Below, piece by piece: positions 1 through 35,330 of a DNA stretch of 35,330 nt. The notes below the pieces were generated by a model. That model was not told the DNA's origin. It was given only the letters and a program-made list of their open reading frames with translations, and did no database searches. Position numbers and translations under genes: made by a program. Origin of the DNA: Desulfotomaculum sp. (GTDB lineage: Bacteria; Bacillota; Desulfotomaculia; Desulfotomaculales; Desulfohalotomaculaceae); the NCBI GenBank assembly GCA_021129825.1, contig JAJOKO010000164.1:1-35330 (forward strand), read 5' to 3'. Position 1 is the first letter of the stretch, and the number at the start of each line of letters is the position of its first letter.

Positions 1-540
1 TTGGCTTTGCAATTATATCAACCCGGTTCAGAGGATAGGGGACACACCGCACCCACCTGGCGGAATGTCCCCATCAATTCAGTGGTTATTGAATTTGATC
101 AAATTATTGCTGCGGTGCAAAACGGTACAGTTGATGCCGGTTTGATTATTCACGAGGGACAGTTAACCTATCAAGAAGAAGGGCTGGAACTGGTGCTTGA
201 TCTTGGTAAATGGTGGTATGAAAAGAGCCAAGGGTTACCTTTACCACTAGGTGGCAATGTAATCAAAAAAGATTTGGGAGAACAGGTAATTAAAGAAGTT
301 TCCGTAATATTAAAAGAAAGTATTCAGTATTCGCTAACGCACAGGCAAGAAGCATTAGATTATGCTTTAGAGTTTGCGCGGGATATGCCCCGGGAAAAAG
401 CAGATAAATTCGTTGGTATGTATGTTAACGATTTGACGGTAGACTATGGTAACAGGGGCAAGCAAGCTGTGGAAGTTTTTTTGCAAGCAGCTTATGATCA
501 GGGGTTAATTAAGCATTTACCCAAGATTACTTTTGTGTAG
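1..540 (+). CDS. mqnD: 1,4-dihydroxy-6-naphthoate synthase MqnD, 3' part (5' end outside window)
   Basis: Protein contains FDQIIAAVQNGTVDAGLIIHEGQLTYQEEGLELVLDLGKWWYEKSQGLPLPLGGNVIKKDLG, typical of MqnD. The N-terminal half is missing, so the TTG at position 1 is probably internal. Confidence 0.9.
   Translation: MALQLYQPGSEDRGHTAPTWRNVPINSVVIEFDQIIAAVQNGTVDAGLIIHEGQLTYQEEGLELVLDLGKWWYEKSQGLPLPLGGNVIKKDLGEQVIKEVSVILKESIQYSLTHRQEALDYALEFARDMPREKADKFVGMYVNDLTVDYGNRGKQAVEVFLQAAYDQGLIKHLPKITFV
34..78. repeat. Palindromic REP-like element copy 1, inside the mqnD reading frame
   Basis: gataggggacacaccgcacccacctggcggaatgtccccatcaat shares both ends with copies at 17293 and 33559. Terminal GGGGACA/TGTCCCC and inner CCGC/GCGG are complementary. 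Confidence 0.85.
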
Positions 541-17229: not shown

Positions 17230-17292
17230 CAGTCAGCTATCATTTTTAAATGTTTTTTTATTTGAGATGTGTGTTCGAAAAGGAGTTTAGCG

Positions 17293-17333
17293 GATAGGTG
17301 ACACACCTGTTTCACAGGAATGTCCCCATCAAT
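17293..17333. repeat. Palindromic REP-like element copy 2
   Basis: gataggtgacacacctgtttcacaggaatgtccccatcaat; ends as copies 1 and 3; inner CCTGT/ACAGG. Confidence 0.8.
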
Positions 17334-17357
17334 CTATAGACCCAAGAAGTTCAAGGC

Positions 17358-17417
17358 GACTTTCTAATGGTGGGGTGAAGCGTATAAATAATACGTAAGC
17401 GTCACCATTAGAAAGTC
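17358..17417. repeat. 15-bp perfect inverted repeat with nested CGTAT/ATACG hairpin
   Basis: GACTTTCTAATGGTG (17358-17372) and CACCATTAGAAAGTC (17403-17417). Confidence 0.85.
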
Positions 17418-17482
17418 AACGCAGAAATTCGCCGGGTATTTCGCACGGACTTTTCGAACATCCTCTTGAGGAGGTGTTAGAT

Positions 17483-17779: not shown

Positions 17780-17876
17780 TGGCGGGAGTGTGTGAGAATC
17801 GAACTCACCACGGGCAGGAACACTACCCGACAATGGTGTTGAAGACCAAGAGCACCACCAGGCACCATCCACCCCC
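17780..17876 (-). tRNA. selC: tRNA-Sec (UCA)
   Basis: Minus strand GGGGGTGGATGG...GGTCTTCAACACC (anticodon TCA), long variable arm CGGGTAG..CTGCCCG, T arm GTGAGTTCGATTCTCAC, encoded CCA, 97 nt. Confidence 0.9.
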
Positions 17877-21972: not shown

Positions 21973-23499
21973 ATGAATAACGGTATTGTTTATTTGGTCG
22001 GGGCTGGTCCTGGGGATCCTGGTTTAATTACGGTCAAAGGGTTGGAATGTATTCAAAAAGCCGGTGTGATTGTATACGATCGTCTGGCAAGTCCGAAACT
22101 ACTGGCTAAGATTAGTCCGGAAACAGAATTAATTTATGTAGGTAAATCACCGGATGGTCATGCTATGAAACAGCAGCAAATTAACCAACTGTTGGTGGAC
22201 AAGGCTCAATCCGGCCAAATAGTCACCAGATTAAAAGGCGGCGATCCCTTTGTATTTGGCCGGGGCGGCGAAGAAGCGGAAACATTGGTTGAAAATGGCA
22301 TTAGATTTGAAGTAGTGCCTGGGATTACTTCGGCAGTAGCAGCCCCGGCTTATGCCGGTATTCCAGTTACCCACCGGGATGCTACCAGTAGCTTTGCGGT
22401 GATTACCGGCAATGAAGACCCGACCAAAGAAAATTCTAATATTGCTTGGGATCAAATTGCTACCGGTTTGGGTACGCTAGTTTTTTTGATGGGTATGAGT
22501 AACTTGCCGGTTATCTGTGACAAACTAGTGCAACACGGGCGTTCACCGGCTACACCGGTGGCTTTGGTGCGTTGGGGTACTCGTCCGGAACAACGAACGT
22601 TGGTAGGTACTTTAGCAACCATAGCTGCTGAAGCTCGGCAAGCTAAATTTAAAAACCCGGCAGTAATTGTGGTTGGTGAAGTGGTCAGATTACGGGATAA
22701 ATTAGCTTGGTTTGAGAGTAAACCGTTGTTTGGTAAACGGGTACTGGTCACTCGCTCTCGCGAGCAGGCTAGCGAGTTATCCCGGCAGATTGAGGAATTG
22801 GGTGGCGAAGCCTGGGAATTTCCTACTATCAGGATCGCTGCACCGGCAGATTATACTGCGCTGGATGCCGCTATCGGTAAACTACCGTTATACCAGTGGA
22901 TGATTTTTACCAGTGTTAACGGGGTTAAATATTTTATGGATCGCCTGAAAATACTTAATAAAGATATTAGGAATTTACAAGGGATTGAGTTGGTTGCTGT
23001 TGGGCCTAAAACCAAAGCAGCTTTGGAAGCTTATGGTTTGCTGGTTAATTATGTGCCGGGAGAATACCGGGCTGAACAAATCACTGCCGGTTTGAAGGAA
23101 AAATTAAAACCAGGTGACCGGGTGTTGTTGCCCCGGGCTGACCTTGCTCGCCAGATTTTACCGCAACTACTGGCTGAAGCAGGAGCGGTAGTAGAAGATG
23201 TGATTACCTACCGGACAGTAGCGGCAGCAGGAGATGCCACCCGGTTGAAAGCAATGTTGCAGAAAAGAGAATTACATATTTTAACTTTTACCAGTGCTTC
23301 TACCGTGAAAAACTTTGTTAAATTATTAGCGGCAGATAATTTACAAGAGTTGTTACAGGGCGTAACTGTGGCTAGTATTGGACCGATTACCTCCGCTACT
23401 GCTTGTGAACTGGGGATTGAAGTCACGTTAGAGGCTAAAGAATCTACTATAGCCGGTTTGGTAGAAGCAATTAGAGGGTCTTCGAAAAGTAAAAAGTGA
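21973..23499 (+). CDS. Uroporphyrinogen-III C-methyltransferase / uroporphyrinogen-III synthase fusion (CobA-HemD)
   Basis: VYLVGAGPGDPGLITVKG, RLKGGDPFVFGRGGEEAE, PGITSAVAAPAYAGIPVTHRD; C-terminal HemD domain. Confidence 0.94.
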   Translation: MNNGIVYLVGAGPGDPGLITVKGLECIQKAGVIVYDRLASPKLLAKISPETELIYVGKSPDGHAMKQQQINQLLVDKAQSGQIVTRLKGGDPFVFGRGGEEAETLVENGIRFEVVPGITSAVAAPAYAGIPVTHRDATSSFAVITGNEDPTKENSNIAWDQIATGLGTLVFLMGMSNLPVICDKLVQHGRSPATPVALVRWGTRPEQRTLVGTLATIAAEARQAKFKNPAVIVVGEVVRLRDKLAWFESKPLFGKRVLVTRSREQASELSRQIEELGGEAWEFPTIRIAAPADYTALDAAIGKLPLYQWMIFTSVNGVKYFMDRLKILNKDIRNLQGIELVAVGPKTKAALEAYGLLVNYVPGEYRAEQITAGLKEKLKPGDRVLLPRADLARQILPQLLAEAGAVVEDVITYRTVAAAGDATRLKAMLQKRELHILTFTSASTVKNFVKLLAADNLQELLQGVTVASIGPITSATACELGIEVTLEAKESTIAGLVEAIRGSSKSKK

Positions 23500-33089: not shown

Positions 33090-33292
33090 GAGCACTCTCG
33101 GAAACAGTTAAAAAGTTCCAAACACCCCCTCCCCCTAACCCCCTCCCACTAGTGGAGGGGAAATCAAGTTCCCTCCCCCTTGATGGGGGAGCGGGTACCC
33201 ACCCGAAGGGAAGGGTGCAGGTGGGGGTGAAAAAACGAAAACTTTCTTTGAAAGGTACAGAAATAGTGGGGTTAGACTTTCCGAGAGTACTC
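33090..33292. mobile_element. MITE-like element B, 203 bp, 15-bp TIRs and 7-bp TSD
   Basis: GAGCACTCTCGGAAA ... TTTCCGAGAGTACTC flanked by GACCAAA (33083-33089 and 33293-33299). Confidence 0.85.
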
Positions 33293-33314: not shown

Positions 33315-33563
33315 ATGTTAATGGAGCAACGTATCGGGGTGATTGGGATAGTGGTAGAAGATCGTGCTAAAGCAGCCCAAATTAATGCTATCCTTAGTGA
33401 GTACGGTGACATGATTATTGGTCGGATGGGCGTACCCTATCAAAACAAACAACTTAGCGTGATTTCGCTGATAATTGAAGGAACAACAGATCAAGTAGGA
33501 GCAATGACCGGTAAATTGGGTAACATTAAAGGAGTACAAGTAAAATCAGCGTTAAGTAGATAG
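33315..33563 (+). CDS. TM1266-type iron-only hydrogenase system regulator
   Basis: RIGVIGIVVEDRAKAAQINAILSEYGDMIIGRMGVPYQNKQLSVISLIIEGTTDQVGAMTGKLGNIKGVQVKSAL; SD GGGAGGTGG. Confidence 0.88.
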   Translation: MLMEQRIGVIGIVVEDRAKAAQINAILSEYGDMIIGRMGVPYQNKQLSVISLIIEGTTDQVGAMTGKLGNIKGVQVKSALSR

Positions 33564-33664
33564 GGGACACACCGCACCCTTCCCGGCACTCAATTCAGAC
33601 GCAAGAAGATATCGTTAAACAAATCTTTGTTTCTGAATTGAGTACCGGGAAGGTCCCCATCAAT
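33559..33664. repeat. Palindromic REP-like element copy 3, with 21-bp internal inverted repeat
   Basis: GATAGGGGACACACCGCACC...GGTCCCCATCAAT; CTTCCCGGCACTCAATTCAGA (33579-33599) pairs with TCTGAATTGAGTACCGGGAAG (33632-33652), one mismatch. Confidence 0.88.
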
Positions 33665-33701: not shown

Positions 33702-35099
33702 ATGGATAGAATAGAACAAGATTTAATCGGGACAGTAAAATTACCAGCAGAAGCCTATTACGGTATTCATACCGCCCGGGCAGCAGAAAACTTTGATGTT
33801 ACCGGTACGGGGGTGCATCATCAGTTAATTAAGGCCTTGGCGGTGGTTAAACAAGCGGCGGCGGCTGCTAACATCACTATGGGGATATTAGACCGAAAAA
33901 TTGGTGATGCCATTTACCAAGCGGCCGGCGAAGTGGCGGCAGGGCAATTACTGGATCAATTTATTGTAGATGCCCTCCAAGGTGGGGCGGGTACATCTAC
34001 CAATATGAATATGAACGAAGTATTAGCTAACCGGGCTATTGAACTGCTGGGCGGGAAAAAAGGTGACTATACCCTGGTGCATCCTATTGATCACGTCAAT
34101 AGCAGTCAATCCACAAATGATGTTTATCCCACCGCCTTGCGGATTGCGGCGATTCGTTTATTACAGCCGTTGAGTGCACATTGTGCGTTGTTGCAAGGAG
34201 CATTACAAAAAAAAGAAGCAGAATTTGCCGGGGTATTGAAAGTGGGACGTACTGAAATGCAAGATGCGGTACCGATTACTTTAGGGCAGGAATTTGGCGC
34301 TTATGTTGAAGCAGTAGCCCGGGATCGCTGGCGATTGTATAAAGTAGAAGAACGTTTGCGCCAGGTGAACTTAGGTGGTACGGCGGTAGGCACCGGATTA
34401 AACGCCCGGCGAAAATATACCTATACCGTTATTGAACGCTTGCGCGGCTTAACTGGTTTAGGATTAGCCCGGGCTGAAAACATGGTTGATGTCACCCAAA
34501 ATGCAGATGTATTTGTAGAAGTAGCTGGTCTGATTAAAGCGGCGGCAACTACTCAAATTAAAATTGCTGCTGATTTACGATTGTTGTCTTCTGGCCCGCG
34601 AGCAGGGTTGGGTGAAATAAAATTGCCGGATTTACAGGCCGGTTCATCGATTATGCCGGGCAAAGTGAACCCGGTACTGCCGGAAATGGTGACGCAAGTA
34701 GCGTACCAAGTAATCGCTCATGATTTAGCAATTACCATGGCCGGGCAGGCGGGGCAGTTAGAGTTAAACGCCTTTTTACCTTTAATTGCCGCTAATTTGC
34801 TGCCGGCTATGGATAACTTGAGTAAGGCACTCAAGTTATTTGCTGAACGATGTATATTAGGGATTGAAGCGAACGCTGATCACTGCCGGCAGTTACTGGA
34901 AAATAGTATTAGTTTGATTACGGTGTTGGTGCCACAAATTGGTTATGAACAAGCGACCCAGTTGGCTGAAGAAGCATTGCAAAAAAAATGTAGCCTCCGC
35001 CAAGTGATATTAGCCAACAAAGTACTGAGTGCAGCAGAGTGGGAACAATTGATCAAACCGGAAACGGCACTAAAAGCAGGCGTTTTTGGTGCAAAGTGA
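33702..35099 (+). CDS. aspA: Aspartate ammonia-lyase (fumarase/aspartase superfamily)
   Basis: MDRIEQDLIGTVKLPAEAYYGIHTARAAENF, GTSTNMNMNEVLANRA, HPIDHVNSSQSTNDVYPTA, GSSIMPGKVNPVLPE. Confidence 0.88.
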   Translation: MDRIEQDLIGTVKLPAEAYYGIHTARAAENFDVTGTGVHHQLIKALAVVKQAAAAANITMGILDRKIGDAIYQAAGEVAAGQLLDQFIVDALQGGAGTSTNMNMNEVLANRAIELLGGKKGDYTLVHPIDHVNSSQSTNDVYPTALRIAAIRLLQPLSAHCALLQGALQKKEAEFAGVLKVGRTEMQDAVPITLGQEFGAYVEAVARDRWRLYKVEERLRQVNLGGTAVGTGLNARRKYTYTVIERLRGLTGLGLARAENMVDVTQNADVFVEVAGLIKAAATTQIKIAADLRLLSSGPRAGLGEIKLPDLQAGSSIMPGKVNPVLPEMVTQVAYQVIAHDLAITMAGQAGQLELNAFLPLIAANLLPAMDNLSKALKLFAERCILGIEANADHCRQLLENSISLITVLVPQIGYEQATQLAEEALQKKCSLRQVILANKVLSAAEWEQLIKPETALKAGVFGAK

Positions 35100-35163: not shown

Positions 35164-35330
35164 AGTGCAGGTTCGAAAAGGGTACCATTTAGTACATTTA
35201 AAATTTACATATTAATCCAATCAACCTTAAAACACACCCCCACCCTACCCTCCCCCATCAAGGGGGAGGAGATTAAGTCCCCCCCTCCCCTCGTGGGAGG
35301 GGCGGGTACCCACCCGAAGGGAAGGGTGCG
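35164..35330. mobile_element. MITE-like element A3, inverted relative of A1, truncated by window end
   Basis: AGTGCAGGTTCGAAAAGGGTACCATTTAGTACATTTAAAATTTACATATTAATCCAATCAACCTTAAAACACACCCCCACCC closely matches the reverse complement of 756-569, then switches to the module seen in element B. Confidence 0.8.

Follow-up and report, generated by a model that had tools for sequence, protein, structure and literature searches.

A small palindromic repeat family with in-frame copies in mqnD and other conserved genes of a Desulfotomaculum genome

The stretch of DNA analysed here (35,330 nucleotides from Desulfotomaculum sp., contig JAJOKO010000164.1 of assembly GCA_021129825.1; hereafter the window) opens within mqnD, and a 45-bp palindromic block (GATAGGGGACACACCGCACCCACCTGGCGGAATGTCCCCATCAAT) lies in this reading frame as 15 codons (DRGHTAPTWRNVPIN). 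This locus raises the question of how a hairpin-forming repeat came to stand inside a conserved gene, and whether it is read as part of the protein. The best explanation, which we consider very likely (probability about 0.86), is that the block belongs to a family of small non-autonomous mobile palindromes tolerated in proteins; translation and MqnD activity are inferred from sequence alone, without protein or RNA data. Our analyses show a multi-copy family with compensatory changes in its inner stem, similar TYARAG flanks and at least 18 in-frame copies, most of them visible as insertions relative to homologues. The source assembly is a MAG-like draft of 1.58 Mb in 171 contigs, 85% complete, which could be searched but not read as a whole.

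The mqnD insert and the integrity of its host gene

The mqnD gene is truncated by the contig end, the window being contig C4 from its first base. Its 5' part was found on contig C63, whose reversed sequence ends in an exact 55-base overlap with the start of the window. Once the two contigs are joined, the mqnD frame is open for 312 codons without a stop, and nothing interrupts the N-terminal part carried by C63, so the gene is not a pseudogene upstream of the window, an outcome that would have refuted the preliminary description. The joined protein is 75% identical over 290 columns to MqnD of a relative (G007) and also aligns with four others. The fragment encoded in the window matched no NCBIfam model at E <= 1e-10, and its identification as MqnD therefore rests on the PDB matches and the relatives.

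Precisely the 15 residues of the insert are missing from MqnD of all five relatives (G007, G022, G032, G049 and G041), which are free of the repeat, and likewise from two solved MqnD proteins (PDB 1zbm and 2czl/3a3u). When the insert is removed, LYQPGSE is directly followed by SVVIEFDQI, against LYEPNFDYVVVPFDQI in the relatives, with an identical spacing of 16 residues. A plain 45-bp insertion reproduces this spacing exactly; an event of 51 bp including a duplicated hexamer, minus two host codons, remains a possible alternative. The claims made earlier for this locus consequently held: the block provides 15 in-frame codons, its removal restores the spacing of homologues, its ends recur in the intergenic copies starting at 17293 and 33559, and relatives do not share the 15 residues. 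Folded as RNA, the block reaches -22.3 kcal/mol, compared with -10.5 +/- 2.3 for shuffled sequences (z = -5.2; 0/200 shuffles as stable), and forms a GAT-bulge-GGGGACA stem, an internal loop and an inner stem of four pairs.

The overlap between contigs (window 1-55, corresponding to G000:C63:1-55) includes 33 bases of mqnD, and the assembly break falls inside the element. Together with the exact overlap, the break may reflect a branch of the assembly graph in the element loop, possibly through strain variation, which is no more than an inference. A further reading would be that the insert is an assembly artefact, produced by misjoining an intergenic copy at a contig end, in favour of which stand the position of the break and an exact 55-base overlap as expected from a join of k-mer length. 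Against it, the shared 55-mer carries those mqnD bases, a 15-base piece of which was found by genome search only in C63 and C4; furthermore, frame and homology are continuous on both sides, and many other contigs carry similar inserts away from their ends. We regard an artefact as all but excluded.

Table 1. Features of the window related to the mqnD element and to the other copies of its family.
Feature	Position in window	Strand	Remarks
mqnD, 3' part, to the stop codon	1..540	+	PDB 1zbm and 2czl/3a3u align over its full length
Upstream flanking hexamer TCAGAG	28..33	+	Target-site-duplication-like; 5/6 identical to 79-84
45-bp palindromic element, 15 in-frame codons	34..78	+	Absent from homologous MqnD; folds as RNA
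Left end GATAGGGGACACACC	34..48	+	Family consensus GANAGGGGACACACC
Right end GGAATGTCCCCATCAAT	62..78	+	Contains the 15-base end AATGTCCCCATCAAT
Downstream flanking hexamer TCAGTG	79..84	+	5/6 identical to 28-33
MITE-like host unit of the copy at 17293	17272..17460	+	11-bp terminal inverted repeats TGTTCGAAAAG / CTTTTCGAACA
41-bp intergenic copy	17293..17333	+	Nested in a longer inverted-repeat unit
106-bp copy	33559..33664	+	Loop holds another palindrome (CCCGGCACTCAATTCAGA...TCTGAATTGAGTACCGGG); a start codon follows after about 37 nt, at 33702

Stem, loops and flanks of the repeat family

The family comprises about 60 copies in the genome. Exact matches to its right end number 42, rising to 60 when up to two mismatches are allowed (reversed control, 10); for its left end (GANAGGKGACACACC) the same tolerance gives 68 sites (reversed control, 7). 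Copies are 39-137 bp long, mostly 39-87 bp, the range of all in-gene copies. The stem GGGGACA...TGTCCCC is invariant, and length varies because the loop does, often holding other palindromes (CCGGCACTCA...TGAGTGCCGG; CACCCTTCCC...GGGTACCCG). Tandem copies occur on contigs C109, C35, C148 and C36. On the last of these (G000:C36:3620-3745), three tandem 43-bp variant copies (GAAATGGGACACACC...GGAATGTCCCAAATC) stand between an rpsP-like gene and the next gene, the first of them providing the final codons of the rpsP-like frame.

Changes in the inner stem are compensatory, with GC, AT, TA and CG all occurring at one pair: 14 double-change cells were counted versus 3.7 +/- 1.5 after shuffling (0/500), and 96% of stem cells are paired versus 28-52% when the alignment is slid. 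The flanks were compared in 43 copies, with the nested sub-family excluded. Summed over these copies, the preceding and following hexamers match at 137 positions, versus 118 +/- 5.6 with shuffled partners (p = 0.0004), and both sides share the consensus TYARAG. These flanks resemble a duplication of the target site at a Shine-Dalgarno-like hexamer; this remains only a possibility, as the target consensus is a shared one and no empty site is known at the DNA level.

Most non-coding copies precede a start codon in the sense direction at a distance of 10-40 nt (about 15 copies were so placed), a position which may be explained by insertion at Shine-Dalgarno-like TYARAG sites. Together with the conservation of the stem through compensatory changes, this position favours a different reading, in which the palindromes serve a function as RNA or DNA signals (REP-like stabilisers of mRNA, attenuators, or regulators of translation placed before Shine-Dalgarno sites), the copies within genes being by-products. 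The preference for TYARAG, however, accounts for the position without regulation, the copies are spread over unrelated genes with loops freely filled by other repeats, and a search of three loci against Rfam returned no family matching the element. We therefore hold this reading to be very unlikely.

Other repeats were observed in the window. A second MITE-like family, which ends in the terminal repeats listed in Table 1 for the unit at 17272, occupies positions 561-761 and 17272-17460, the latter harbouring the nested palindrome copy. The arrangement of the element with CTATAGA in this unit recurs on C1, C2 (two), C63, C114, C116, C126 and C18. Downstream of the same unit, positions 17784-17876 on the reverse strand carry a selenocysteine tRNA gene (Rfam RF01852, 66 bits). 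Finally, a long C-rich repeat (CCCCCTCCCCCTAACCCCCTCCC...) has three copies, at 599-756, 33120-33220 and 35164-35330; two of them form a 126-nt inverted pair with 93% identity, and the right end of the window lies inside one copy.

Copies inside conserved genes

The preliminary description called for a genome-wide list of copies inside open reading frames. Every copy was translated with its surroundings, and at least 18 were found within long open frames of conserved genes, all of them in frame. The host genes, named through NCBIfam, PADLOC and relatives, are mqnD, mazG, pyrK, uvrC (two sites), addA, addB (two sites), recJ, purH (two sites), an ABC-F gene (a tandem pair), mutL (antisense), a MutS-family ATPase, a PMR1-type Ca-ATPase, dnaE (antisense) and Wadjet jetA, with degenerate or partial copies in jetC and in a hydrogenase-GGDEF gene. 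Host genes run through the element in each of the three sense frames and in one antisense frame.

Compared with relatives, the net gain in residues is +15 in mqnD, +30 in pyrK, +27 and +11 in uvrC, +32 in ABC-F, +18 and +9 in purH, +24 in addB, +16 in addA, +18 in the mutS-like gene, +26 in the Ca-ATPase and +29 in dnaE. The insert peptides include EKGHTAQENTRNVPFN in PurH and TSMGTFPALTK in DnaE, and PDB chains of these two proteins lack the inserts. Most inserts are clean relative to relatives; in variable stretches, however, the element substitutes host residues, with a net change of 0 in recJ, +4 in mazG and +9 at the first purH site, so that neither the mode of insertion nor any subsequent trimming is understood. 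The inserts in jetA, mutL and jetC are less sharply bounded, resting on family models or variable linkers, and the second addB site is poorly aligned.

A hairpin within a message might also escape translation. In this alternative the inserts would be bypassed by the ribosome, in the style of T4 gene 60 or the mitochondrial byps, or removed by an RNase, leaving normal proteins; in MqnD, skipping would give a junction peptide of the type LYQPGSESVVIEFDQI, and translation one covering DRGHTAPTWRNVPIN. In its favour, the mqnD insert is a strong hairpin, and inserts occur in essential catalytic proteins such as DnaE, where skipping would hide them at the protein level. Bypass or excision, however, requires neither a length in multiples of three nor the absence of stops, yet the host frame remains open through 18/18 in-gene copies, versus the roughly 25% expected from non-coding copies (24 distinct) that are both 3n long and stop-free with their 6-base flanks in a given sense frame. 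Moreover, several inserts replace host residues, so that skipping would shorten the protein. This explanation appears very unlikely. The frame count is biased and gives no clean probability, in-gene copies having been first recognised through their open frames. Length alone is weak evidence, as 19/34 non-coding copies are also 3n; it is the absence of stops in the frame used that adds weight.

No case came to light in which a copy had disrupted the frame of a conserved gene. Two short gene fragments stop soon after a palindrome (G000:C5 at about 22794-22380, near 22479, and G000:C9 at about 23606-23207, near 23344). Neither had a Pfam hit; judged by eye from their sequence, we take them to be Fic-like and substrate-binding-protein-like, respectively, and they look as if deletions might have happened beside the elements.

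Repair, replication or defence genes recur among the hosts of this genome (uvrC twice, addA, addB twice, recJ, mutL, MutS-like, dnaE, and Wadjet jetA and jetC), with loci at C74:1-1424, C86:1501-5955, C112:2619-4616, C120:450-4214, C149:297-2999, C5:19001-22402, C12:18160-20013 and C52:1360-4746. Similar hosts are seen elsewhere, namely ligA, mfd and addA in the related genome G065, and addA, addB and priA in Wolbachia. A bolder and rather unlikely reading is that palindromes favour DNA repair and replication genes, as a bias common to unrelated coding palindromes; the excess was noticed after the fact and has no proper null. If true, inserts that weaken repair could favour their own spread, or repair proteins could offer the most tolerant loops.

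Distribution, mobilisation and comparison with known systems

Of 113 genomes from the order, 41 contain the core of the element (GGGGACACACC...GGAATGTCCCC) and none the reversed control, and the core palindrome also occurs in wider Clostridia, including Desulfoscipio, Pelotomaculum, Dethiobacter, Syntrophomonas and Formimonas, among others. Desulfotomaculum sp. BL5_bin.2 and Desulfocucumis palustris are among the genomes in which it is abundant. In G065, which we take to be Desulfotomaculum sp. BL5_bin.2, in-frame copies were identified in ligA, mfd, addA, a decarboxylase gene (two), a LivF-like ABC gene (three in tandem) and the gene for a PH-domain protein, the LigA insert sitting between two aligned stretches of PDB 4glx. 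A Ruminiclostridium MAG carries an antisense copy in a Gfo/Idh-like oxidoreductase gene. Copies within open reading frames amount to 20/64 in the Desulfotomaculum genome studied here, and to 14/72 and 13/141 in other genomes; the latter shares include spurious antisense frames, and the difference should not be over-read. The exact sub-family with ...CCCCATCAAT was detected in no other genome among about 85,000 species genomes, a set from which its own genome was possibly omitted. Because of this absence, and because relatives are too distant, no close pair of occupied and empty sites can be compared at the DNA level.

Two Y1 (RAYT-like) transposase genes are present in the genome, one intact and the other broken, with the repeats GGGGACGGGGTTGTTGAC and GGGGACGGTTCT at their flanks. 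This bears on the possibility that the palindromes are REP elements mobilised by a REP-associated tyrosine transposase (RAYT), a reading favoured by short palindromes, tandem copies, GGGGAC...GTCCCC ends and the RAYT-like Y1 genes themselves. Against it, the Y1 genes are flanked by those other repeats or by none, and neither GGGGACACACC nor GGAATGTCCCC was present, even at one mismatch, in any of 30 Y1 loci from 12 related genomes; thus no transposase with the ends of the element was found among the Y1 transposases of this and the 12 related genomes, the only family searched. In addition, REP transposition is not known to duplicate its target, whereas the flanks match here. Mobilisation by a RAYT is thus unlikely, though less firmly rejected than the other alternatives.

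The preferred reading remains that of a non-autonomous mobile palindrome tolerated in proteins. Such an element would be built of a left end GANAGGGGACACACC and a right end GGAATGTCCCCATCAAT around a variable and often nested loop. A transposase acting in trans would insert the hairpin at TYARAG hexamers, with duplication of the hexamer, and essential genes would retain only those copies whose length is 3n and whose sequence has no stop in the host frame. The mRNA would be read straight through, yielding an MqnD with a short hydrophilic extra loop between LY and FDQI that is presumed still active, without activity data. The element would then be selfish DNA tolerating translation, and it is not known to benefit the host. 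The initial suggestion of a mobile hairpin tolerated as a peptide insert is supported in this sense, although the production of the peptide, the activity of MqnD and the mobiliser are inferred only. Points that weigh against it are the lack of a transposase with these ends among the Y1 genes examined, the inserts that replace host residues, the bias in the frame count, the two gene fragments ending near elements, and the assembly break inside the mqnD element.

Palindromes within genes have been described in other bacteria. Rickettsia palindromic elements (RPE), reportedly described by Ogata et al. in 2000 and 2002, occur in frame in conserved, often essential genes, and also between genes (PMC2229807, PMC10969869). 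The present family resembles them in being a palindrome of many copies that lies between genes and also, in frame, within conserved genes whose relatives lack it; at the sequence level it thus behaves as coding palindromes do, while production and activity of the host proteins are inferred. In contrast, RPE are about 105-150 bp long, a length that the in-gene copies do not reach, and belong to an alphaproteobacterium, whereas our family is found in Clostridia and has a GGGGACA...TGTCCCC stem, nested loops and TYARAG flanks. The analogy with RPE drawn in the preliminary description thus held for behaviour and was strengthened by the in-frame copies, while membership of an RPE family is unsupported. 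Similarly, Wolbachia palindromic elements (WPE; reportedly described by Ogata et al. in 2005) have in-frame copies in addA, addB and priA (PMC4224334), and addA, addB (two sites) and other repair genes are also struck here, although the phylum is different and the regions in Wolbachia genes are longer.

REP elements are GTAG/CGTC palindromes associated with RAYTs (PMC3733652), similar to the present family in size, palindromic form and tandem copies. The stem foot of the latter nevertheless has no GTAG or CGTC tag, reading TYARAG-GANA in the copy alignment, and the RAYT-like genes of the genome have other flanking repeats. Non-autonomous inverted repeats such as ERIC/RU-1, YPAL/RU-2 and Correia elements show target duplication and in-frame fusions (PMC2229807, PMC2759123). 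Like MITEs, the present family has terminal inverted repeats (GATaGGGGACA / TGTCCCCATC) and copies too short to hold a transposase gene of their own. The differences are that about one third of the present copies lie inside genes, mostly conserved ones, that copies are shorter, and that no parent transposase is known.

In-frame coding palindromes were first regarded as peculiar to Rickettsia and later to Wolbachia, both intracellular bacteria with relaxed selection. A 2024 review merely speculates that coding palindromes could occur beyond these genera (PMC10969869). Our results provide an independent case in Clostridia (the Desulfotomaculum/Pelotomaculum order), affecting core enzymes such as DnaE, UvrC, PurH and AddAB, and suggest that the coding-palindrome habit needs no alphaproteobacterial intracellular lifestyle. 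The loop insertions, about 18 in all, also form a natural collection in which the tolerance of enzymes for foreign peptides can be studied, and searches for the mobilising enzyme and for the target rule (TYARAG) become possible in about 40 related genomes, which include cultured species. The most fitting label for the family is that of a clostridial, MITE-like coding palindrome, behaving as RPE and WPE do and distinct from them in length, sequence design and phylum.
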